A stretch of DNA of 32,172 nt from an uncultured Gammaproteobacteria bacterium (GCA_903938575.1 CAJADV010000615.1:1-32172); one strand, 5' to 3'; positions 1,423-31,945 are shown, numbered from the stretch's first letter. Made by a program: numbers and translations. Notes: generated from the letters alone by a model not told the origin.

Positions 1423-1450
1423 GAAAACGGGCGGCATCTCTGCCGCCCGT
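1423..1450 (-). terminator. Intrinsic terminator of the TonB2-like operon
   Basis: A perfect 10-bp stem (ACGGGCGGCA pairing with TGCCGCCCGT, loop of 4) lies about 20 bp past the stop codon of the last TonB-operon gene. On the minus strand it runs into TTTTCG, so the orientation fits a rho-independent terminator for the operon and separates it from nrdR-ribD. Confidence 0.85.
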
Positions 1451-1470
1451 CGATGGAGCCGAGGCGCGTG

Positions 1471-2895
1471 TCAGCCCCTGTCGAGGCGCCGAGCCTCTTC
1501 GAGCGAGCGCGTCATGAAGGGGTTGCGCCGCAGCAGTTCATTCGCAAGCACCGCTTGGCTCTGCTCATCAAGGATCCGCGTCACGATATTGGAAAGCGCA
1601 GTCATGCCTTGATTAATGAAGAGCAGCGGGATGGCGATACCAATTCCCAGTACCGTCGCCATCATGGCCTGCCCGATACCATGCGCCATCATCTTGGGGT
1701 CACTGGAACCCGTGGACGTGATGACATGGAAGGTCACGATCATGCCAATAACTGTACCGATCAGACCGAGCAGCGGACCCGCCGCCACGCCGAGGCGCAA
1801 GAAGGCCTGGAAGCGTTGCAGTTTAGGCACTTCGCGAAGCACAGCCTCGGAGATCTTGAGTTCCACAACCTCTGCCGACTGACCGGCCACATCACCCTCA
1901 TGCATTGCCAGAAGAACACGACCAAGCGGATTGTTGCTGGTGGGCTGTGAGAGGTTCTTCAACTGCGCGGCAACCTTGGCACGCTGCATAAACAGATAGA
2001 TGTACTGGTATAGCGCGAGCACTACCGCAAGTATGCCCACGAAAAGAATCACGTAGTTGACGACCTCTCCGTGCTGGATACGCTCGATGATATTCGGGCG
2101 CTCAGAAAACATCCCTATCATCGCACCACGTGCCGGATCTACCACAGCTGAGACGTACCCCTCCCCGGTGGAGCCCGAGAGGTCCCTCGCCGTACGCATG
2201 AGGCCGGGCGTGAGCTCACGCTCGAGTTGCTCGAGTTGCAAGGTGCTCGAGTTGTACGTGAGATACTTGCCGTCGGCAACCGCAGTGAAAGGACCTACTC
2301 TCACGACGTCCGCCTCTGCCAACGTCCCGTCACGCATCTTGACCGGTGCCTTGAAGCGGACGACCTTGGATGTCTCTGTCATTTCGCGCTGTAGCTCGAA
2401 CCACAGGCGCTGAAGCTCGTCGATACCCGGAAGCTCCTTCGCCGCGGCAATCCGCCGCATGAACGCCTCACGCCCTTCCTCGCCTTCGACAGGCCGGAAC
2501 TGCGAACTGAGCATGGAGCTGGACAGTACATTGGCCGCGTCGCCGGCAATCTGGCGCGTAACCCCGAAGAGCTCTCCCAAGTTGCCTTCGCGCTGACGCA
2601 GCAAATCTTTGAATTCCGTGATACGCGCGTCGTTTGCGGTCCATTCGGCATCGAGTGTCTTGGTCCGGTTGTCAGCGCGCTGGCGCCGCGCGGCCGCTTC
2701 CGCCAGAGATTTCTCCTGCTTCTGAAGCTCTACTCGCTGAGTAGCTTCGCGTTCCTTCCAGACTTTCGCCTCCCGCTCACGCATGGCGGCCGCCTGGCGC
2801 TCCAATTCGCCTAGGTTCACGGCAGCGTGCGTTGCAGCCAACGGCAGCAGGCTGAGGGCTACGAGAGCGGCTTTGATAAAGCGAGTGCAGTTCAC
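1471..2895 (-). CDS. TtpC-like MotA/TolQ/ExbB proton-channel protein, second copy
   Basis: This 474-residue protein has a cleavable signal peptide (about residues 1-24, ending THAA), a long charged coiled-coil periplasmic region (about 25-120), a middle domain, and a C-terminal ExbB/TolQ channel domain. One membrane helix lies near residue 280, and the GPLLGLIGTVIGM and ATVLGIGIAIPLLF helices lie near 375-440. This is the layout of Vibrio and Shewanella TtpC, which assists TonB2 in energising outer-membrane transport. It starts with GTG at 2895, inside the preceding DUF3450 stop (GTGA, 4-bp overlap), exactly as in the paralogous pair at 8226/8223. It is the last gene before the terminator. 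It is clearly paralogous to the protein at 6835-8226. Its separate role is inferred only from the duplication. Confidence 0.88.
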   Translation of the reverse strand: MNCTRFIKAALVALSLLPLAATHAAVNLGELERQAAAMREREAKVWKEREATQRVELQKQEKSLAEAAARRQRADNRTKTLDAEWTANDARITEFKDLLRQREGNLGELFGVTRQIAGDAANVLSSSMLSSQFRPVEGEEGREAFMRRIAAAKELPGIDELQRLWFELQREMTETSKVVRFKAPVKMRDGTLAEADVVRVGPFTAVADGKYLTYNSSTLQLEQLERELTPGLMRTARDLSGSTGEGYVSAVVDPARGAMIGMFSERPNIIERIQHGEVVNYVILFVGILAVVLALYQYIYLFMQRAKVAAQLKNLSQPTSNNPLGRVLLAMHEGDVAGQSAEVVELKISEAVLREVPKLQRFQAFLRLGVAAGPLLGLIGTVIGMIVTFHVITSTGSSDPKMMAHGIGQAMMATVLGIGIAIPLLFINQGMTALSNIVTRILDEQSQAVLANELLRRNPFMTRSLEEARRLDRG

Positions 2896-3602
2896 GAGCG
2901 GGCCTCCTGCGCCGGGGGCACCGGAACGAACATCACGTCAGGCGCTACTTCTTTTTTGGCAACCCGCAGTGCCTGGGCCACTGTGTCACGGTAATCGTTG
3001 TCAACGACCCATGTCTTCTGGGCGTGGTCCCAATAGCCAGCCTCCTGGCCATCGTCTGTGCGGTACAGCAGGGACACGCGACCGACCCTCACGAACTCGG
3101 CCTTACGACCGTCGTCAAGTTGCCCTGGATACGCCGCAACCGAACGGCCATATTCCATCTCGATTTGATAGGCCTCTAGAAGACGGCGGTATTTCTCGGC
3201 CGAGTTCAGACCGCCGTCAGACATCATGTCCTTGAGACGCTGCATGCGGTCTTGGCGGCTATCGTCGCTGTCCCCGATAGGATCGAGGAAGGGGAGGTCC
3301 TGGGCGACAAACTTCTCAAGATCACCATGCATCCGCGAGAGAAGCGGGGCCAGGTTGGCTGCAGTGGCGTCGAGCGCAGCGGACTGCGATTCGACGTCAG
3401 CCAGACGCTGCTGCTGCGAAGCGATCTGCTTGGTGAGCGTGTCGTTATAGCGCACGAAACTCTCAGTGTCTGCGTAGAGTTTCGCGTAGCGCTCCCCGAC
3501 GTCCTGCGCGTGGCTCGCCACGCTCCCGACGCCCAGAAGCACCGCGACCGCGATGCCTGCCACCCTGCGCACAGGGCTATTGTGTGGTTTATTCCGGCTC
3601 AT
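2892..3602 (-). CDS. DUF3450 periplasmic coiled-coil protein, second copy
   Basis: The family is of unknown biochemical function but is almost always encoded beside TtpC-type ExbB proteins in TonB2-like operons. From the ATG at 3602 the protein is 236 residues: a signal peptide of about 27 residues ending SHAQ, a coiled coil (about 30-110), and a compact C-terminal part containing RVGRVSLLYRTDDG and GYWD. The C-terminus (VPVPPAQEARS) closely resembles that of the copy at 8223-9011, which ends VPVPAPKEARS. A TTG at 3626, overlapping the upstream TPR stop, is an alternative start. I prefer the ATG because the signal peptide then begins cleanly, although its GAGG ribosome site is 13 bp away, a little far. 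Confidence 0.87.
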   Translation of the reverse strand: MSRNKPHNSPVRRVAGIAVAVLLGVGSVASHAQDVGERYAKLYADTESFVRYNDTLTKQIASQQQRLADVESQSAALDATAANLAPLLSRMHGDLEKFVAQDLPFLDPIGDSDDSRQDRMQRLKDMMSDGGLNSAEKYRRLLEAYQIEMEYGRSVAAYPGQLDDGRKAEFVRVGRVSLLYRTDDGQEAGYWDHAQKTWVVDNDYRDTVAQALRVAKKEVAPDVMFVPVPPAQEARS

Positions 3603-3622
3603 GACTGGCTGTGATCCTCGAA

Positions 3623-4855
3623 TCAACCCTTCTGGACCTTGATCAACTGCAGATAGCCATCGGCCATCCTTCGATGCTTCTCGAAGCCACGCGCTCGATT
3701 GAACGCGTCGCCCGCGGGCCCGTAGTTCTTCTGGTTGAAGTGCGCGATCCCGAGAAGCAACTGCGCGTTACCTGTGTCCTTGAGGCCGCCTTTGCGGATT
3801 CCGCTTTGCAGCGCCTTCGCGGCTTCGCCCCATTCACTTCGTTGGATCTGGACTTCTCCGAGTCGCACAAACAGATCGCCGCTCCCGGCCATTTCAGCGG
3901 CCCGGTTCAACGGGGAAATCGCCTTCCCGAAGTCGCGTGCACTGATCCAGCAGTTGGCCTGCTTCTCATAGAGCTTGGCGTCAACCTTCACCTGCTTCTT
4001 CGCGATAGCCTCGTCGAGGGTCATGCCACAACGGTAAGGCAGTTCGTTGAAGAGTTGCAGATCGGCGAGGCGGCGTATGTCAGAGTCTTCGTTCACGATC
4101 CCGGCGTTGTACGCGAGCTGCAAGGTGCTCAGAGCCTTGATGTAGTCCTCCATCTGCCCATACACAGACGACAACTGCTGCCAGTAGCTCTTTTTCTCAG
4201 GCGTCATGGAAATCAGTTTCTTCAGCAGCGGCACTGCCTCGGAGTAGCGGTCTTGCTGCAGATACAGCGCCAGGACCAGTTGGACCCAGCCTTCTTGCGG
4301 CTTGTCTGTGAGGTCTACGGCTTTCTGCGCCGGAGGCGTAGCACGCTTGAAGTCCTCCTGCTGGTAATAGGCTACCGCAAGCAGGTAGTAAGCAGCACCG
4401 TTAGGGCTTTGGGCCGTGCGAAACCACTCTTCCAAGGCCGCAGCGCCTTCCTTCCATTTTTCCTCGGCAAGGAACATCTGCGCCATTTGATAGCGCGTGT
4501 CCGAGATTTCCTTGTCGTTCAGGCCCCCGGCGGCGATCGCTGCCTGCAGGTGCCCGCGCGCCTTGGTGTAGTTGTCCTGCGAACTCTCGATGGTAGCGAG
4601 GATCTGCTCCGTACGGCTACGCTCGTAAGGGCTCAGCGAATCCAGCTTCAACTTTGCGATCGCCGCTTTGGCGCCCGAGTAGTTCTCCTTGTTGAGCGCC
4701 TCGATGGCCTCGGTCAGGATTTTTCCAGTCGCAGCGTCGATGCCCGTGGGAGGGGGCGCATCGTCTTTTTTCTTTTGGGCGTTGGCCTGACCTGCCAGCG
4801 AAAGCGCCAGGAGCAGGGCAAGAGTCGCGCGGAGCATGAACTGCATCATGGTCAT
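3623..4855 (-). CDS. Periplasmic TPR-repeat protein of the TonB2-like operon
   Basis: This 410-residue protein has an N-terminal signal peptide (cleavage near residue 26, after GQANA) followed by many TPR-like helix pairs. Examples are the stretch with YYLLAVAYYQQEDFKRA and the one with FNQKNYGPAGDAFNRAR near the C-terminus. TPR proteins in this operon position are known from Shewanella-type TonB2 clusters, where they are needed for TonB2-dependent uptake. A role as a periplasmic adaptor between TonB and the envelope is inference. The ATG at 4855 follows the tonB stop by 3 bp, so translation is probably coupled. There is a lysine-rich KKKDDAPPP segment directly after the signal peptide. Confidence 0.87.
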   Translation of the reverse strand: MTMMQFMLRATLALLLALSLAGQANAQKKKDDAPPPTGIDAATGKILTEAIEALNKENYSGAKAAIAKLKLDSLSPYERSRTEQILATIESSQDNYTKARGHLQAAIAAGGLNDKEISDTRYQMAQMFLAEEKWKEGAAALEEWFRTAQSPNGAAYYLLAVAYYQQEDFKRATPPAQKAVDLTDKPQEGWVQLVLALYLQQDRYSEAVPLLKKLISMTPEKKSYWQQLSSVYGQMEDYIKALSTLQLAYNAGIVNEDSDIRRLADLQLFNELPYRCGMTLDEAIAKKQVKVDAKLYEKQANCWISARDFGKAISPLNRAAEMAGSGDLFVRLGEVQIQRSEWGEAAKALQSGIRKGGLKDTGNAQLLLGIAHFNQKNYGPAGDAFNRARGFEKHRRMADGYLQLIKVQKG

Positions 4856-4858
4856 GCC

Positions 4859-5458
4859 TCAGTTCTCCAGGTCGAAGCGGATGATCGTGCGTACGCCACG
4901 ACGTTCGACGGGCTGTCCGTTCTCAACCTTGGGGTTGTAACGCCAGCGACTGATAGCCTTGAGTGCGGCGTCGTTGAATATGGTACCTGGCTTGGAGTCG
5001 ACGACCTTGGCGTCCTTGACCGCGCCGGTGCCTGTAATCGTGAATTCCACGAGCACCCACCCTTCAATGCCACGGTTTACGGCACGCGCAGGGTAGTCTG
5101 GAGGAACGCGAACCAAGGGAATCGTATCGCGGTCGGAGCCTGCGGAAATGTTCAGCCCGCTCATCGCGCCGCGTGCATCGACGCTTGGCGTAAGTGTGGC
5201 GACGTTGCTGTCTACGCCACTCGTTTGGAACTGCATCTTTGGCACTTCCGGCGCAGGCGGTGGGCGCTCACGCTCGACCTTTTCTTCGCGCTTGCTCGCG
5301 ACATCGGTATCTTTGCGCATCCGGGTGAACTCGATCCGGGTCGCTTCTCTCATAGCTTCGCCGCCGCTCGGGCGGCTGACCAAGCTGGACATCAGCCAGA
5401 ACATCAGCAGAGTGAGAACTGTGCCGAACAGCAGGGATAATGGCAGTCTTGTGAACAA
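4859..5458 (-). CDS. tonB: TonB-family energy transducer (TonB2 type)
   Basis: TonB passes the proton-motive force harvested by ExbB/ExbD to outer-membrane receptors. From the TTG at 5458 the protein is 199 residues: one N-terminal membrane anchor (about 3-26), a short charged linker with only one proline run (RPPPAPEVP, about 66-74), and a C-terminal TonB_C domain from about residue 115 onward (DYPARAVNRGIEGWVLVEF, then ISRWRYNP). The short proline region is typical of TonB2 rather than classical TonB1. An in-frame ATG at 5542 would lie inside the preceding exbD. The TTG has a perfect AGGAG 8 bp upstream (5467-5471) and gives a proper anchor, so I chose it. It sits between exbD and the TPR gene in one operon. 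Confidence 0.9.
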   Translation of the reverse strand: MFTRLPLSLLFGTVLTLLMFWLMSSLVSRPSGGEAMREATRIEFTRMRKDTDVASKREEKVERERPPPAPEVPKMQFQTSGVDSNVATLTPSVDARGAMSGLNISAGSDRDTIPLVRVPPDYPARAVNRGIEGWVLVEFTITGTGAVKDAKVVDSKPGTIFNDAALKAISRWRYNPKVENGQPVERRGVRTIIRFDLEN

Positions 5459-5486
5459 GGCTATGGCTCCTGCTGCAGTTCCGGGA

Positions 5487-5897
5487 TCAGCCGCCGGCAG
5501 CCGTATCGGCTGCGATGGCGACGTCTTTGATGCCACCTGCACGCACTTCGTCCATCACTTTTGCGACGACGCCGGCGCGTGAGGCTCGATCGGCAATGAT
5601 CACTACGCTGTCGTCCGGGCGCTCGGTATGAAGGCGCTCGATGACGTTTCGCACCTCACGCAGATCAATAGACTGGCGATCAAGCCAGATATCTCCGTTC
5701 TCGCGGATGGCAATGAGGAGATTGCCCTTGGGACGCTCCTCCGCCGTCGAAGCGTTCGGCTTGAACACCTCTATGCCAGGTTCCTTTATGAAGGACGTGG
5801 TGATGATGAAGAAGATCAACAGGTTGATCGTGAAATCGAGCATCGGCGCAAGGTCGATGCCGTGGTCTTCTTGCTCTGCGGAGTGTTGCTTGGCCAT
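5487..5897 (-). CDS. exbD: ExbD biopolymer transport protein, second of a tandem pair
   Basis: ExbD dimers sit in the pore of the ExbB pentamer and carry the proton-responsive aspartate. This 136-residue protein has a short cytoplasmic N-terminus, one membrane helix (about 21-40) with the conserved aspartate at position 21 (PMLDFTINLLIFF), and a periplasmic domain of about 90 residues. It differs from the neighbouring ExbD at 5911-6321 in most of the periplasmic domain. It ends in an alanine/glycine-rich tail (AADTAAGG). It begins 13 bp after the first exbD and is followed by tonB after 28 bp. Loss of function is unlikely because all core residues are present. Confidence 0.92.
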   Translation of the reverse strand: MAKQHSAEQEDHGIDLAPMLDFTINLLIFFIITTSFIKEPGIEVFKPNASTAEERPKGNLLIAIRENGDIWLDRQSIDLREVRNVIERLHTERPDDSVVIIADRASRAGVVAKVMDEVRAGGIKDVAIAADTAAGG

Positions 5898-5910
5898 CTG
5901 ATCGCTCCGC

Positions 5911-6321
5911 TCACTCGGTCGTGGTGAACGTGATGTTGTAGATGCCGCCGAGATGAACTTGCTCGACGATGGATATCAGGGTTCCCGTAGGCGACTCAGA
6001 ACCCGCAAGCACCAGCACGCCGGCATCCGGGTTTACCGCGCTCATGCGCTCGACGTTTGCGCGAACTGCACGGACATCGACGGCGCGGTTGTCCATGTAT
6101 ATTTCACCCGTGTCGAGAACCTGGATCTGGATGCTCTTGGAATCCGAATCGTTCGGCTGATCGAAACCGGTTGGCCGGTTCACCACTACCGCTGTCGCCT
6201 TGACGAACACCGCGGTGATGATGAAGAAGATCAGTAGGTTGATGACGAAGTCGAGCATCGGCGCTAGATCGATGCCGTGGGACGACTCCCCGTGGTCCTG
6301 TACGCGACGTTTGAAACGCAT
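5911..6321 (-). CDS. exbD: ExbD biopolymer transport protein, first of a tandem pair
   Basis: Also 136 residues, with the aspartate at position 24 in PMLDFVINLLIFF and one membrane helix (about 24-43). Its periplasmic domain carries VLDTGEIYMDNRAVDVRAVR, the usual ExbD/TolR fold signature. The N-terminal flank (HGIDLAPMLDF) is identical to that of the other ExbD, while the periplasmic domains have diverged strongly. That is what one would expect if both are kept to form a mixed dimer or to contact different partners. It follows exbB by 2 bp, and the same operon promoter presumably drives it. Confidence 0.92.
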   Translation of the reverse strand: MRFKRRVQDHGESSHGIDLAPMLDFVINLLIFFIITAVFVKATAVVVNRPTGFDQPNDSDSKSIQIQVLDTGEIYMDNRAVDVRAVRANVERMSAVNPDAGVLVLAGSESPTGTLISIVEQVHLGGIYNITFTTTE

Positions 6322-6323
6322 GG

Positions 6324-6842
6324 CTAGAGCGACAACCTGTCTGCTAAGAGTTCGGTTTCATGGGCCGCGCGCGTCCGGAGCGCATGCACAGGGTAGAGAC
6401 CCGTGATGCTGACTGCCAGTCCGGTCATCGTGCAGATCATGGCTTCGGATACACCACTGGCCATCGATCGGGCGTCTGCATTACCACGAAGCGCCATGGA
6501 GTCGAATACCCCGAGCATCCCCGAAACGGTTCCGACGAGGCCGAGCAGCGGCGACATGGGCACCAACACCTGAAGAACAGGGAAGCCAACGGTCATGTTC
6601 TGATTGATACGAGAGATCATGGCCTGCCGAATTTGCCGCGCACACCAAGAACTCTTGTCCGTACGGGCAAGCCATTCTTTTTGGGCGCTGGACGCCTCCC
6701 GTGGCAACACGCGCGAAAAGTACCAATAGCGCTCGATCGCCAGGCCCCACATGAGGACACCGCTGGCGAAAATCCAGCCTACCCAAGGCCCTCCATCCGA
6801 CAGGAGATGGATAAACCCACCAAACAGCGGAATATCAGCCAC
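6324..6842 (-). CDS. exbB: ExbB-family proton channel protein (ExbB2)
   Basis: This short (172-residue) ExbB is the canonical channel subunit of TonB2 systems. It has one N-terminal membrane helix (about 12-35), then a cytoplasmic loop. Two helices follow: VPMSPLLGLVGTVSGML (about 95-115) and ASGVSEAMICTMTGLAVSI (about 130-155). The GTG start at 6842 overlaps the end of the TtpC-like gene by 8 bp, so translation is coupled. It should form the inner-membrane complex with the two ExbD proteins and TonB encoded next. I see no missing key residue. Confidence 0.92.
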   Translation of the reverse strand: MADIPLFGGFIHLLSDGGPWVGWIFASGVLMWGLAIERYWYFSRVLPREASSAQKEWLARTDKSSWCARQIRQAMISRINQNMTVGFPVLQVLVPMSPLLGLVGTVSGMLGVFDSMALRGNADARSMASGVSEAMICTMTGLAVSITGLYPVHALRTRAAHETELLADRLSL

Positions 6843-8226
6843 GACGGGTCGTCTCGATGCTTTCGGCCAGCATGCCGGCGGACTGCTCTTCGATCACTTG
6901 AGCGATCCCCTTCGAGATGGACGTCAAGAGAGCGTTCGCGAACAACAGCGGAATAGCGATACCGATACCGAGGACGGTCGCGATCATTGCCGCACCGATG
7001 CCTTCAGCCATCAGTTTGGGATCGCTGGACCCGGATTCGGTGATGCTCTGGAAGGTCAAGATCATGCCAAGAACCGTACCGATCAGACCCAGCAATGGTC
7101 CCGCGGCGACGGCAAGGCGCAACATCGCCTGGAAACGCTCGAGTCTGGGAACTTCACGGAACACGGCCTCGGCAATTCGCAGTTCCGCGACATCAGCGTC
7201 CTGTTCGATGTTGCTTGCGTCCCCTTTGAAGGCAAGGAGAACCCGACCCAGCGGATTGTCTGCTGCAGGCTTTCCAAGACTCTTCAGCTGTGCGGACACT
7301 TTCATGCGCACGACGATCAGGAACACGAGCTGGTACAGGAAGCACACCATGGCAATACCGCCGACGAGCAGGATCACATAGTTGACGGATTCACCGTGCT
7401 CAATCCGATACGCCCACGACGGACGCTCGACATAGAGGGACATCAGCACTCCGCGCGAACCGTCGACGACTGCCGTCGGGTAACCGCTGCTTGCTGCCGA
7501 GAACTGGGCGCCGATGGCCATGAATTCCGCCGGTGGTTGCCGGGGGTACACGCTGAATGCCTTGAGCTCAGGCAGATAATTCAGGTACTTGCCTTCGGAC
7601 ATCGCCGTAAACGGGCCCACACGGATGACTTCGGTCTCCTTGGGCTCACCGCCAGGCTGCACGACCCTTGTGGTGTACTTCGCAACAGCACCGCTCTGTG
7701 TCATTTCCCCGTGAAGTTCAAGCCACACTTTTTCGAGGTCACTATGCGTGGGCGCTGTCTGTGAAGCTGCGAATTCGCGCAAGTAGTCGTCTCGGATCGA
7801 CTCACCCTCAGCTGCCTGAAACTGCGTGGAAATCATCGACTGCTGCAGGATGTTCGCGGAATCACCAGCCACCTGACGAGCCAGACCGAACACTTCCTGC
7901 AGACCCAGTGATGCGGCCTTGTCGCGAAGCTTTTTATCGGCCTCGTTGATCACGAGCTCATTCGCGGAGAACTGTTCGGCGAGCTTGTCGGACGCCGCCG
8001 AGAGAGCTTCGCGGCGGCTTTGAGCCTCGGCGAGCATCTTGGCTTGCTGCTCCGCAGGCGCTGCGTTGAGCTCCGCTGCACGCTGCTGAAAGGTTTGCTG
8101 CTCTGCTGCACGCGCCGCCTGCACCTCTGCGAGGAGGCCTTCGAGCGAGTCCTGCGCCAAGGCTACACCGGCCTGTAGCATCACGGCCGCAGCCGCGACA
8201 AGGATCAACTGCTTGGACTTAATCAC
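6835..8226 (-). CDS. TtpC-like MotA/TolQ/ExbB proton-channel protein, first copy
   Basis: This 463-residue protein has a signal peptide (about residues 1-24), a coiled-coil periplasmic stretch (about 25-115), a middle domain of about 150 residues, and a C-terminal ExbB-like channel domain. Its helices are near 272-292 (YVILLVGGIAMVCFLYQLVF) and 370-440 (GPLLGLIGTVLGM, ATVLGIGIAIPLLF). Vibrio TtpC is the best-known relative; it is essential for TonB2- but not TonB1-dependent transport. It begins with GTG overlapping the DUF3450 stop by 4 bp and is followed by the short ExbB. It is a paralogue of the protein at 1471-2895, with the strongest similarity in the channel domain. Confidence 0.9.
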   Translation of the reverse strand: MIKSKQLILVAAAAVMLQAGVALAQDSLEGLLAEVQAARAAEQQTFQQRAAELNAAPAEQQAKMLAEAQSRREALSAASDKLAEQFSANELVINEADKKLRDKAASLGLQEVFGLARQVAGDSANILQQSMISTQFQAAEGESIRDDYLREFAASQTAPTHSDLEKVWLELHGEMTQSGAVAKYTTRVVQPGGEPKETEVIRVGPFTAMSEGKYLNYLPELKAFSVYPRQPPAEFMAIGAQFSAASSGYPTAVVDGSRGVLMSLYVERPSWAYRIEHGESVNYVILLVGGIAMVCFLYQLVFLIVVRMKVSAQLKSLGKPAADNPLGRVLLAFKGDASNIEQDADVAELRIAEAVFREVPRLERFQAMLRLAVAAGPLLGLIGTVLGMILTFQSITESGSSDPKLMAEGIGAAMIATVLGIGIAIPLLFANALLTSISKGIAQVIEEQSAGMLAESIETTRRG

Positions 8227-9011
8227 GACCGGGCCTCCTTCGGAGCGGGAACGGGGACAGTCAACAGATTCGGCGGACCATCTTTTTCAGCAACACGACG
8301 GGCCTCGGCAACCGCAGCAGCGTAGCTGTTGTCCAGAACCCAATCTTTCTTTTCAGCGTCCCAGTAGCCGGTCTCCGCACCGTCAAGCGTCTGGTAGAGA
8401 AGCGCAACGCGCCCCAGGCGCACAAAAGATACTGTGCGGGCGTCCGGGCCGCTGCCCAGCAGACCATCGTAGGACTCGAGGGTACGGCCGTACTCAAGCT
8501 CGATCTGGTAGGCCTCAATGATGCGGCGGTACTTCTCGGAGATAGTGACGTCGGCGCGGGGCATGATGTCCTGCAGGGTCTGGACCCGGCTGGTGCGCTC
8601 CGCGAGAAGGAAGGGAGTGTCGAGAGACACAAATTTCTGCAGCGTGTCGACCATGCGCTTCATCAGCGGCTGGACTTCACGGCTGGTGGTTTCGATCTCG
8701 AGCAGCTGGGTCTCTATGGAGGAGACCTCATCGCGCTGAGCCTTTACCTGCTTGTCGAGCTGCGAGTTGTACTTCTCGAGGCTCTCGGCATCCGCAGTCG
8801 CCGAGGCGTAGCGGCTTGCCGCATCCTGCAGGCGGTCACGGATCTCGTTGATGCGCTTCTGCGAAGACGCAGCCGCTTTATCGGCTTCGCCTTGGGTGGC
8901 GATGGCCTTGTCGAGCGACTGGGCAGATGCCTGCTGTGCGGCAACTGCCACCACGCCTGCCACCACGACGGACGCCAGCGTCCTCGTGATCCTGGTGATG
9001 GAAAGACTCAT
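8223..9011 (-). CDS. DUF3450 periplasmic coiled-coil protein, first gene of the TonB2-like operon
   Basis: From the ATG at 9011 this is 262 residues: a signal peptide (about 1-30, ending QQASAQ), a long coiled coil (about 32-125), and a C-terminal region with RLGRVALLYQTLDG and GYWDAEKKDW. The biochemical role is unknown. In Shewanella- and Alteromonas-type clusters this family is the first gene of the TonB2 operon, as here. The frame stays open upstream to an ATG at 9146, but that start lacks a ribosome site and would bury the signal peptide. The ATG at 9011 has AGGAGG 11 bp upstream. It is paralogous to the protein at 2892-3602. Confidence 0.88.
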   Translation of the reverse strand: MSLSITRITRTLASVVVAGVVAVAAQQASAQSLDKAIATQGEADKAAASSQKRINEIRDRLQDAASRYASATADAESLEKYNSQLDKQVKAQRDEVSSIETQLLEIETTSREVQPLMKRMVDTLQKFVSLDTPFLLAERTSRVQTLQDIMPRADVTISEKYRRIIEAYQIELEYGRTLESYDGLLGSGPDARTVSFVRLGRVALLYQTLDGAETGYWDAEKKDWVLDNSYAAAVAEARRVAEKDGPPNLLTVPVPAPKEARS

Positions 9012-28702: not shown

Positions 28703-28756
28703 GTTTCGCCTGACGTTTCGCCGGGGCTGCAGCGCGTGTTAGCGTCGCGGCGCGAC
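28703..28756. promoter_or_regulatory. Repeats and palindrome upstream of the GH109 gene
   Basis: GTTTCGCC occurs twice in tandem with a 12-bp period (28703-28710 and 28715-28722). It is followed by the palindrome GTCGCG-G-CGCGAC (28744-28756), which ends only 6 bp before the GGAGG ribosome site. Both are in the glyA-GH109 divergent gap and look like regulator sites, but no regulator gene is adjacent. Confidence 0.4.
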
Positions 28757-28774
28757 AAGGCCGGAGGGCAGGAC

Positions 28775-30157
28775 GTGACAGACGCAATCAAGCGCCGGGA
28801 ATTCCTCGCTGCGGCCACGGCAGCGGCCGCCGGGGCAGGCCTTGCCGGCTGCGCACAAACGCCGCTCGCCGGCCCCACACCGGCCTCAACACAGGCAACG
28901 GACGCGGCGCCACCGCGTGCACCGGGCCAGCGCAGCATGCGCGGCTTGACCTTCGATACGCGCGGCCGGGCGCGCATAGCGATCGTGGGCACCGGGCTCC
29001 GCGGGCGCGCGGTGCTGGCGGAACTCCTCACGATCGAGGGCGCCGAGATCACGGCCATCGCGGATCTGCGACCCGCCAACGCCGCGCTGGCCCTGGAGGA
29101 CATCAAGGCGGCAAAGCGGCCGGCACCAGCGGTCTACACCGGCGGCGAGCGGGACTTCGAGCGCCTGGTGCAGCGCGACGACATCGACCTCGTCTACACC
29201 GCCACGCCCTGGGAGTGGCACGTCCCGGTCTGCCTCGCCGCACTGAACGCCGGCAAGCACGCAGCCACCGAATGCCCGGCGGGCGCAACGCTGGAGGATC
29301 TCTGGGCACTGGTCGATGCCGCCGAGCGCAACCGTCGCCACTGCCTGCAGCTCGAGAACTGCAACTACGGCTACACCGAGATGCTGGTGAACCGCCTGGT
29401 GCACGCGGGCGTGCTGGGCGAGCTGCTGCACTGCGAGGCGGCCTACCTGCATGATCTGCGCGAGATCCTCTTCGAGACCCGCGACGAGGGCCTCTGGCGA
29501 CGCGGCTGGCACACGCGCATGGACGCCAATCTCTACCCTACCCACGGGCTGGGGCCGGTGGCCCGCTATCTCGATATCCACCGCGGCGACCGCTTCGATT
29601 ACCTGGTCTCGATGAGTTCGCCCGAGGCGGGCCTCTCGGCATGGCGTGACACCAAACTCGCGGCCAACGACCCGCGCCGCGCCGAGCGCTACCTCGCGGG
29701 CGATGTGAACACCTCGCTGATCAAGACCGCGCGCGGGCGCAGCATCACGCTGCAGCACGGCGTGAGCAGCCCCCGGCCCTACTCCCGACTGAACGGCGTG
29801 CAGGGCAGCAAGGGGATTTTTCAGGACTATCCGCCACGCATCTACGTCGAGGGACAGCCCGGCGAAGAGACTTTCGGGCCGCTGGATCCCTGGCAGGCGA
29901 CACACGAGGATCCGCTCTGGCGCGAACTCGGTGAGCGTGCCCGCGAGCAGGGCGGTCACGGTGGCATGGACTTCGTAATGTGCTGGCGGCTGGTGCAATG
30001 CCTGCGCGAGGGTCTGACACCGGACTTCGACGTCTACGACGCGGCAGCGTGGAGCGCACCGCTGCCGCTCTCGCGGATCAGCGTGGCCGGCGGCAGCGCG
30101 CCGGTGAAATTCCCGGACTTCACCCGCGGCGAGTGGCAAGGCCCGAACGGCACCTGA
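28775..30157 (+). CDS. GH109-family glycosidase (Gfo/Idh/MocA fold), Tat lipoprotein
   Basis: GH109 enzymes, typified by alpha-N-acetylgalactosaminidase of Elizabethkingia, cleave glycosides through a bound NAD+. The 460-residue protein starts at a GTG with GGAGG upstream. It begins with a twin-arginine signal (KRREFLAAA) and a lipobox ending at Cys26 (GLAGC), so it should be exported folded and lipid-anchored. The Rossmann motif GTGLRG is near residue 70, TPWEWH near 147, YLHDLR with Tyr224, and YPTHGLGP with His257, both conserved in GH109. The C-terminus has GGHGGMDFVM and a DVYDAAAWSAPLPLS block typical of the family. The exact substrate is inferred only from family. It is followed by a symporter gene 9 bp downstream. 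Confidence 0.88.
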   Translation: MTDAIKRREFLAAATAAAAGAGLAGCAQTPLAGPTPASTQATDAAPPRAPGQRSMRGLTFDTRGRARIAIVGTGLRGRAVLAELLTIEGAEITAIADLRPANAALALEDIKAAKRPAPAVYTGGERDFERLVQRDDIDLVYTATPWEWHVPVCLAALNAGKHAATECPAGATLEDLWALVDAAERNRRHCLQLENCNYGYTEMLVNRLVHAGVLGELLHCEAAYLHDLREILFETRDEGLWRRGWHTRMDANLYPTHGLGPVARYLDIHRGDRFDYLVSMSSPEAGLSAWRDTKLAANDPRRAERYLAGDVNTSLIKTARGRSITLQHGVSSPRPYSRLNGVQGSKGIFQDYPPRIYVEGQPGEETFGPLDPWQATHEDPLWRELGERAREQGGHGGMDFVMCWRLVQCLREGLTPDFDVYDAAAWSAPLPLSRISVAGGSAPVKFPDFTRGEWQGPNGT

Positions 30158-30166
30158 GGCAAGACC

Positions 30167-31945
30167 ATGCAACTCGCCACGCTGGATATCTGGATCATCG
30201 CCCTGTCACTGGCAGTGGCTTTCGTGCCGGCCTTGTTGATGGCGCGTCGCGCCGGACGCAGCACGGCGGAGTTTTTCACCTCGGGGCGTGCGGCGCCGTG
30301 GTGGCTGGTGGGCGTGTCGATGGTCGCCACCACGTTTAGCACCGACACACCGAACCTGGTCACCAACCTGGTGCGCGAACACGGTGTGGCGAACAACTGG
30401 GCGTGGTGGTCCTTCCTGCTGACAGGCATGGCCACGGTGATGTTCTACGCCCGCATGTGGCGGCGCTCGGGCGTGCTCACCGATCTCGAGTTCTACGAGA
30501 TCCGCTACGCAGGGCGGGCGGCCTCGGTGGTGCGTTGCTTCCGCGCGGTGTACCTGGGCCTCGTCTTCAACGTCGTGATCATGGCCATGGTGAATCTTGC
30601 CGCGGTGAAGATCGCAAACCTCCTGCTCGGCTGGCCGATGTGGCAAACGCTCGCTGTCAGTGCGGTGCTCAACATCCTCTTCGCCGCCAGCTCGGGGCTG
30701 TGGGGCGTGCTGGTGGCGGATTTCATCCAGTTCGGCATCGCCATGGCGGGCTCCTTCGCGGCGGCGTGGTTCGCGCTGCAACGGCCCGAGGTCGGCGGGC
30801 TCGCAGGGCTGATCGAGCGCACGCCGCCCGGCACGCTGGCGATGCTGCCGGATCCCTCCGACTGGACGCTCACACTGAGCGTGCTGGTGATGCCACTGCT
30901 CGTGCAGTGGTGGTCCGTGTGGTATCCGGGCGCGGAGCCTGGTGGTGGTTCCTACATTGCGCAGCGCATGCTGGCCGCACGCAGTGAGCGCGACGCGCTG
31001 GCCGGTACGCTGCTCTTCAACGTGGCGCACTACGCGCTGCGCTCCTGGCCATGGATCATCGTGGCGCTCGCATCGCTCTTGGTGTTCCCCACCCTCGATG
31101 ACATCCGACGTGCCTTTCCGCAGGTCGATCCCACCCTGATCGGGCACGACATCGCCTACCCCGCCATGCTCAGCTTCCTGCCGGCGGGCTGGCTCGGGCT
31201 GGTGATCGCGGGGCTGGTGGCGGCCTATGTCTCCACCATCGTGACGCACCTGAACTGGGGTACGTCCTACCTCGTGCACGATCTCTACCGGCGTTTCATG
31301 CGCCCGGCCGAGAGCGAGCGCCACTACGTGCTGATCGGACGCATCGTGACGGCGCTGCTGATGCTGGTGGCGGCGCTCTTCACGACGGCGCTGGAGTCCG
31401 CACGCCAGGGTTTCACGCTGCTGCTGTCGATCGGCGCAGGTACGGGGCTGCTGTACCTGCTGCGCTGGTACTGGTGGCGCATCAATGCGCAGGCTGAAGT
31501 CGCCGCGATGCTGGGCTCACTGCTGGTGGCCGTGGGTTTCGAGGTGGCGCGCCACGCCGGACACGAAGTCGCGGGGCATCTGGTGGTGCTGCTCACGGCG
31601 GTGATCACCACGCTGGTGTGGGTGCTCGTCACGCTGCTCACCCGCCCCACCGACGACGCCACGCTGCTCGCCTTCTACCGCCTGGTCCGGCCGGCGGGTC
31701 CGGGCTGGACGCGCATCCGCGCACTCGCCGGCATCGGGCCCTCACCCGACTCGCTGCCGCAGGCGATGCTCGGCTGGGTGCTGGGCTGTGGACTGGTGTA
31801 TTGCGCGCTCTTCGGCACCGGCGCCGTGCTCTACGGACGCACCACCGCGGCGTGGATCTTCGGCGTGACGGGCGTGCTCTGCGGCTGGGGCGTAGCGCGG
31901 GTGTTGCGGGGTTTCCGCAACGCGGCGGGTGAGACGGCGGAGTAG
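30167..31945 (+). CDS. Sodium:solute symporter family transporter
   Basis: The 592-residue protein has about 13-14 membrane helices and the SSS-family features. These include the SGRAAPWWLVGVSMVATTF segment near residue 38, the ADFIQFGIAMAG helix near 185 and WWSVWYPGAEPGGG near 250. Several relatives move sugars or related compounds with sodium. Because it is 9 bp behind the GH109 gene (GAGG ribosome site), it may import the sugar that enzyme releases. That is inference, since the substrate cannot be read from the sequence. It has an extra pair of C-terminal helices after a hydrophilic loop (about residues 490-530). Confidence 0.88.
   Translation: MQLATLDIWIIALSLAVAFVPALLMARRAGRSTAEFFTSGRAAPWWLVGVSMVATTFSTDTPNLVTNLVREHGVANNWAWWSFLLTGMATVMFYARMWRRSGVLTDLEFYEIRYAGRAASVVRCFRAVYLGLVFNVVIMAMVNLAAVKIANLLLGWPMWQTLAVSAVLNILFAASSGLWGVLVADFIQFGIAMAGSFAAAWFALQRPEVGGLAGLIERTPPGTLAMLPDPSDWTLTLSVLVMPLLVQWWSVWYPGAEPGGGSYIAQRMLAARSERDALAGTLLFNVAHYALRSWPWIIVALASLLVFPTLDDIRRAFPQVDPTLIGHDIAYPAMLSFLPAGWLGLVIAGLVAAYVSTIVTHLNWGTSYLVHDLYRRFMRPAESERHYVLIGRIVTALLMLVAALFTTALESARQGFTLLLSIGAGTGLLYLLRWYWWRINAQAEVAAMLGSLLVAVGFEVARHAGHEVAGHLVVLLTAVITTLVWVLVTLLTRPTDDATLLAFYRLVRPAGPGWTRIRALAGIGPSPDSLPQAMLGWVLGCGLVYCALFGTGAVLYGRTTAAWIFGVTGVLCGWGVARVLRGFRNAAGETAE

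Follow-up and report, generated by a model that had tools for sequence, protein, structure and literature searches.

A TonB2-type energy-coupling operon with two DUF3450-TtpC pairs and two ExbDs in a freshwater gammaproteobacterium

The window analysed here, a stretch of 32,172 nucleotides from an uncultured freshwater gammaproteobacterium, carries on its minus strand (9011 to 1471) a nine-gene TonB energy-coupling operon, which was delineated from open reading frames and Pfam matches and reads DUF3450a-TtpC1-ExbB-ExbDa-ExbDb-TonB-TPR-DUF3450b-TtpC2. The nine genes are tightly packed, with intergenic gaps that are short or negative. The first pair consists of a TtpB-like DUF3450 protein (DUF3450a, 8223..9011, 262 aa; PF11932 E 2e-78, 263 bits, profile positions 5-240) and TtpC1 (6835..8226, 463 aa), in which a DUF3450-like periplasmic domain is joined to a MotA/TolQ/ExbB channel (PF01618, MotA_ExbB, E 6.8e-25). 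ExbB (6324..6842, 172 aa; PF01618 E 1.7e-20, with PDB sequence matches to TolQ/ExbB) is followed by two ExbDs that are 35% identical to each other, a (5911..6321; PF02472 E 1.2e-19) and b (5487..5897; PF02472 E 7.3e-22), belonging to the E1 and E2 clades of the ExbD tree, respectively. TonB (PF03544 E 4.9e-22) is given as 4859..5542 using its earliest GTG start, which overlaps ExbD b, and the true start may lie further downstream. The next gene (3623..4855) encodes a 410 aa protein matching TPR families and is positioned as TtpD is in the Vibrio TonB2 operons (PMC6957404). Twenty bases separate its stop codon from the ATG (3602) of DUF3450b (2892..3602, 236 aa; PF11932 E 2.8e-59, 201 bits, profile 43-240), and the last gene is TtpC2 (1471..2895, 474 aa; PF01618, MotA_ExbB, E 4.9e-24). 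Both free DUF3450 proteins score above the PF11932 cut-off of 32.6 bits.

The operon is flanked by nrdR, at 1355, and by a divergent nuo operon upstream of DUF3450a. Between TtpC2 and nrdR lies a minus-strand hairpin at 1426..1451 (11-bp, G+C-rich, GTTTTCGTT T-rich tail) with a folding energy of -22.8 kcal/mol (z -3.7), a stability reached by 0/200 shuffles. It was not listed by a strict consensus terminator scan, which requires 5 T in 8; it is nevertheless a probable intrinsic terminator closing the operon before nrdR. The terminator scan found no terminator-like site on the minus strand within the operon, and this, together with the hairpin after TtpC2, makes it most likely that the second pair is transcribed as one unit with the other genes. 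A promoter scan gave no signal above chance. Control by a Fur box upstream of DUF3450a was rejected, since the best 19-mer over 324 bp matched at 11/19 positions, a score that about half of the shuffles reach. Further along the window, downstream of the nuo operon and a TerC gene, a GH109-type oxidoreductase gene adjoins one for a sodium:solute symporter (28736-31945), possibly a sugar-uptake locus.

The nature of the paired proteins was examined with structure models and profile comparisons. In the AlphaFold2 model of TtpC1 (mean pLDDT 81), the membrane part resembles ExbB/TolQ, and the best Foldseek matches of the model in the PDB are E. coli ExbB and TolQ. DUF3450a (mean pLDDT 86) was modelled as a full-length coiled coil plus a beta domain, and the periplasmic part of TtpC1 repeats its layout (long helices, two short helices, five strands, helix). 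Comparison of the DUF3450 and TtpC profiles with hhalign gave E 1.1e-5 over 194 columns (probability 82%), and PF11932 itself was matched by 28/62 TtpCs (E up to 1; best E 2.5e-9), so not by every TtpC. DUF3450 has also been described as the N-terminal domain of some ExbB-type subunits in a 2025 study (PMC12505986). The periplasmic domain of TtpC is itself DUF3450-like, and each pair is thus composed of a free DUF3450 protein and a channel-fused DUF3450-like domain, which makes docking between the two a natural hypothesis. No solved structure resembling DUF3450 was found in the PDB, either by sequence or by fold.

A preliminary description of this DNA had pointed out that both DUF3450 proteins end in EARS and that their genes overlap the following TtpC gene by a GTGA stop/start, and both features were seen at each junction. 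The overlap is 4 bases in both cases. At the DUF3450a/TtpC1 junction (8215..8240, minus strand) it follows an AAGGAGG within the DUF3450 gene, and at the DUF3450b/TtpC2 junction (2884..2909, minus strand) a CAGGAGG; the EARS codons thereby spell an in-gene Shine-Dalgarno site (GGAGG) for the next gene (AAGGAGGCC / CAGGAGGCC). A GGAGG-type site followed by an RTGA overlap is also frequent at the DUF3450/TtpC junction of single-pair relatives, with protein endings such as PEAAQ and PEAAK. Because the ribosome-binding site constrains these letters and is common at single-copy junctions, EARS/GTGA is mostly not an independent sign of recent duplication; the shared ending appears to be largely a constrained translational-coupling signal, common in DUF3450-TtpC gene pairs.

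Both pairs were found on one contig in the window's own genome (G000, a MAG of 661 contigs) and in G002, G003, G004 and G005 of the same genus, that is, in 5/5 same-genus genomes with long enough contigs; in G001, also of the genus, copy 2 is seen, on a short contig only. The full double pair is present in one Lake Baikal MAG (L057) as well. Chance or an assembly artefact was rejected as the source of the doubling, the layout being the same in independent MAGs and the copies orthologous, and a strain-specific or recent duplication was rejected because five genomes of the genus and L057 carry both pairs and the TtpC clades are deep and separate. Restriction of the second pair to this strain, or its degradation in close relatives, had been named beforehand as an outcome that would refute the preliminary description's reading; instead the pair is present in five genomes of the genus and in L057, and is under purifying selection. 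Two further MAG records, L053 (CAMAXE010000014.1, titled Klebsiella pneumoniae) and L054 (CANJKD010000451.1, titled Burkholderiales), carry the operon of the genus with TtpC2 98-99% identical to that of the window, and their titles look wrong.

Among 117 genomes of the order, the TtpC genes of two-hit genomes outside the genus lie far from each other or on different contigs. A stricter search of larger samples recovered two TtpCs in one operon in families f42, f165 and f194, the f194 locus (L156) being cut upstream of ExbB with its copy 1 out of view. The retrieved loci were annotated with profiles built in this analysis, and four architectures were counted. One pair with one ExbD (DUF-TtpC-ExbB-ExbD-TonB-TPR) occurs at 42 loci and one pair with two ExbDs at at least 15. 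Two ExbDs with a lone second TtpC after the TPR gene, and no second DUF3450, occur in 11 distinct complete operons from two families (12 entries, L059 and L190 being the same contig); the partial loci L058, L076 and L156 also have a lone second TtpC. The double pair is found in the window, G002, G004, G005 and L057 (7 entries, two counted twice; G003 is cut at a contig end in this series). A second TtpC downstream of the TPR gene is absent from all single-pair loci with several kilobases of sequence there, and all other TonB2-type loci retrieved have one DUF3450-TtpC pair, which agrees with the single pair that the preliminary description gave for known TonB2 clusters. Among the genomes sampled, a second TtpC without a second DUF3450 is thus commoner than the full double pair. 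Translated junctions of relatives without copy b were inspected by eye for remains of a degraded DUF3450 in the stretch from TPR to TtpC2, and none were recognisable. From the lone-TtpC operons, and from the separate TtpC clades in every two-copy lineage, it follows that the conserved addition is the second TtpC; the second DUF3450 is restricted.

In a TtpC tree of 43 rows, copy 1 (100/100) and copy 2 (100/99) form separate clades, each including members from the window's genus, L057, f42 and f165, with the single-copy two-ExbD relatives outside. The TtpC gene was therefore duplicated before these lineages split, and the separate clades and co-occurrence across families that had been proposed as a check of the initial observation were obtained for TtpC. 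Trees of the periplasmic half and of the channel half agree, and gene conversion was accordingly rejected as the cause of the similar channels. In the ExbD tree, each ExbD of the window groups with its orthologues from single-pair relatives (100/97 and 93/74), which places the gain of the second ExbD before that of the second TtpC. In other two-ExbD Ttp operons (L079, L086, L110 and L121) the ExbDs fall elsewhere in this tree, and ExbD may have been doubled on more than one occasion. DUF3450b, on a long branch (1.0-1.4 changes per site), was placed among the DUF3450a sequences of the lineages with two TtpCs. In AU tests, duplication of the pair as a unit followed by loss in other lineages was not rejected (p 0.14 and 0.19), and a late origin of DUF3450b from the genus's own DUF3450a was marginally disfavoured (p 0.043 and 0.057). 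The earlier proposal that the two-gene module was duplicated as a unit is thus compatible with the trees but not proven by them, lone-TtpC operons being more widespread; unit duplication and loss is somewhat more likely than a separate later duplication of DUF3450, because a separate insertion would need to recreate the overlapping junction. The doubling of the channel-plus-helper pair as such is real, old and conserved.

The two TtpCs are 46% identical overall, with 60-65% identity in the membrane/channel part and 35-37% in the periplasmic part, as expected from the initial remark that the channel domains are highly similar and the periplasmic domains clearly diverged; DUF3450a and DUF3450b are 42% identical. 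This gradient, the age of the copies and the retention of both, and the number of receptors to be served (at least 37 TonB-dependent receptor barrels were detected in G000 and 47 in G005) would all suit the interpretation offered in the preliminary description, namely that one ExbB-ExbD-TonB motor serves both DUF3450-TtpC pairs in turn, the pairs being alternative periplasmic adaptors with a different receptor set each. We consider this rather unlikely, and the analysis brought it no positive support. Among orthologs, too, conservation is higher in the channel part, where the A1 invariant columns cluster, so the identity gap need not signal specialisation. TtpC, moreover, is more than an adaptor, being a channel subunit in which channel threonines are conserved, and most TtpC2 lineages lack a second DUF3450, which means that the unit is not the pair. 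The operon encodes a single TonB, and no receptor gene was found in it or adjoining it. Finally, one of the diagnostic differences between the copies lies in the channel, and a choice of adaptor would not require channel changes.

This difference concerns channel position E397: the glutamate is present in every copy-1 sequence (18/18) and every single-copy two-ExbD relative (17/17), and 22/22 copy-2 rows have A or S there. Conversely, G105-N106 in a periplasmic helix is kept in copy 2 and in single-copy relatives and lost in copy 1. Such copy-specific residues came from a scan and are few in number, but the complementary losses are the pattern expected of subfunctionalisation. Threonines in TM2 and TM3 of ExbB and TolQ have a role in the proton path, and the residues aligned to them, T384 and T417, are conserved in both TtpC copies, L156 excepted; TtpC1, TtpC2 and ExbB all combine the profile match and the channel threonines of the MotA/TolQ/ExbB proton channel family. 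The copy-2 TtpC of G649 (L156:9197-10768) is very diverged, with a branch of 1.36, lacks several of the conserved channel residues, and is possibly non-conducting.

Comparison with G005 and G004 gave dN far below dS for both pairs and nearly all other operon genes, a few short genes having too few changes against G005 to judge, and both TtpC copies are under long-term purifying selection. This selection, and the fixation of complementary copy-specific residues over several families, make it quite improbable that the second TtpC is kept without a distinct role, through gene dosage, buffering or a neutral ratchet. Constructive neutral growth would nonetheless be expected to add subunits stepwise, as here, and DUF3450b is fast-evolving, restricted in distribution and absent from many relatives; in the window, G002, G004, G005 and L057 it starts only after the first ~42-46 positions of the profile and thereby lacks part of the long coiled coil. 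In the comparison with G004, DUF3450a (8223-9011, against L044:13060-13848) has a dS of 0.54, the other operon genes have values of 1.1-1.7, and nuoE/nuoF share 90-93% DNA identity; divergence is therefore patchy, which suggests recombination between species.

The operon was compared with described systems. Vibrio TonB2/TonB3 operons are ordered ttpB-ttpC-exbB-exbD-tonB-ttpD (PMC6957404), and the window operon has the same six gene kinds and begins in the same order, with DUF3450 first and the TPR gene after TonB; unlike them, it has two ExbDs and, after the TPR gene, a second, truncated DUF3450 and a second TtpC. TonB2-driven iron uptake in Vibrio vulnificus requires both TtpB2 and TtpD2, for which their TonB3 counterparts do not substitute (PMC6957404). 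A Fur box precedes the first gene of the V. vulnificus TonB2-type operon, whereas none was found upstream of the window operon. Such a box is not universal for TonB2-type systems, since the clusters of Teredinibacter turnerae, in which tonB2 serves both iron and carbohydrate uptake, are not clearly iron-regulated (PMC10734418). The T. turnerae TonB2 and TonB3 clusters each contain one set of ttpB, ttpC, exbB, exbD, tonB and ttpD (PMC10734418) and thus share the six gene kinds, the second ttpC being present in the window only. The tonB-exbB-exbD1-exbD2 arrangement of Xanthomonas and Stenotrophomonas likewise combines two ExbDs with a single ExbB and a single TonB. To our knowledge, no TtpC, DUF3450 or TPR gene is present there. 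The closest single-copy relatives are operons of Nevskia, Hydrocarboniphaga, Steroidobacter and Cellvibrionaceae (L060-L075), in which both ExbDs are orthologous to those of the window but the DUF3450-TtpC pair is single. The window operon thus has the TonB2-type gene order with two ttpB and two ttpC genes in place of one of each, which makes it a variant rather than a standard member, and we interpret it as a derived form of the Vibrio TonB2 layout. In the literature searched, which lay mostly outside subscription journals, no description of two TtpCs in one operon was found.

Taken with the gene content, these comparisons lead us to favour, tentatively and at somewhat less than an even chance, a single TonB2-type machine with two complementary TtpC paralogs as channel subunits. 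Its operon would have grown stepwise, gaining the second ExbD first and then, behind the TPR gene, another TtpC; a second DUF3450, in shortened form, would have persisted only in the window's genus and the one Baikal MAG. Free DUF3450 would dock on the DUF3450-like domain of TtpC to form a periplasmic collar, and the two TtpCs would divide the ancestral job by complementary divergence, TtpC1 and TtpC2 assembling as obligate, non-interchangeable subunits round a single ExbB-ExbD-ExbD-TonB-TPR set. The TtpCs would pass the proton-motive force to TonB and thence to many TonB-dependent receptors, which by homology the operon should energise, presumably with no receptor specificity of its own. Two distinct motors, each built with a single TtpC and a single ExbD, would be expected to leave the same traces in the sequence, and this counts against the single machine. 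An operon with three MotA_ExbB proteins and with ExbDs from two different conserved clades has the parts for two parallel motors, each TtpC (or ExbB) ring having its own ExbD and only TonB and the TPR protein being common; this we regard as unlikely, as the second ExbD predates the second TtpC and the duplications are not one to one. A more specific form of the single machine, in which TtpC1, TtpC2 and possibly ExbB share one asymmetric, proton-driven ring of mixed subunits, with an ExbD a/b heterodimer and a collar of four DUF3450-type domains, is distinctly improbable. If true, it would be a hetero-oligomeric relative of the 5:2 ExbB/TolQ/MotA motors and an unusual ion-driven motor; the structures of those motors known to us contain one kind of ring subunit only.

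TtpB (DUF3450) and TtpC are essential to TonB2 systems and mechanistically unexplained. A lineage with a split channel subunit, together with sister lineages at each earlier step, offers a natural series for studying the function of both, and the DUF3450-like domain of TtpC suggests a concrete docking partner for free DUF3450.

A further Ttp cluster was found in the genus. On contig C331 of G000 (L050:1640-5650), after genes for thymidylate synthase and dihydrofolate reductase (thyA/folA), it has the order DUF3450-TtpC-TonB-TPR, without ExbB and ExbD, and its TtpC gives a weak channel match (27 bits) with a degenerate, shortened TM2-TM3 segment. A cluster lacking ExbB and ExbD is also present in G005, in the same arrangement, and in G004, where the thyA/folA flank was not matched (L051 and L052). 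In G001 and G002 (L048 and L049), ExbB and ExbD are present in the cluster beside the same thyA/folA neighbours, and it therefore looks as if both genes were lost within the genus in G000, G004 and G005. The C331 cluster may depend on the ExbB-ExbD of another operon and, if any module in G000 borrows a motor in this way, is the better candidate.
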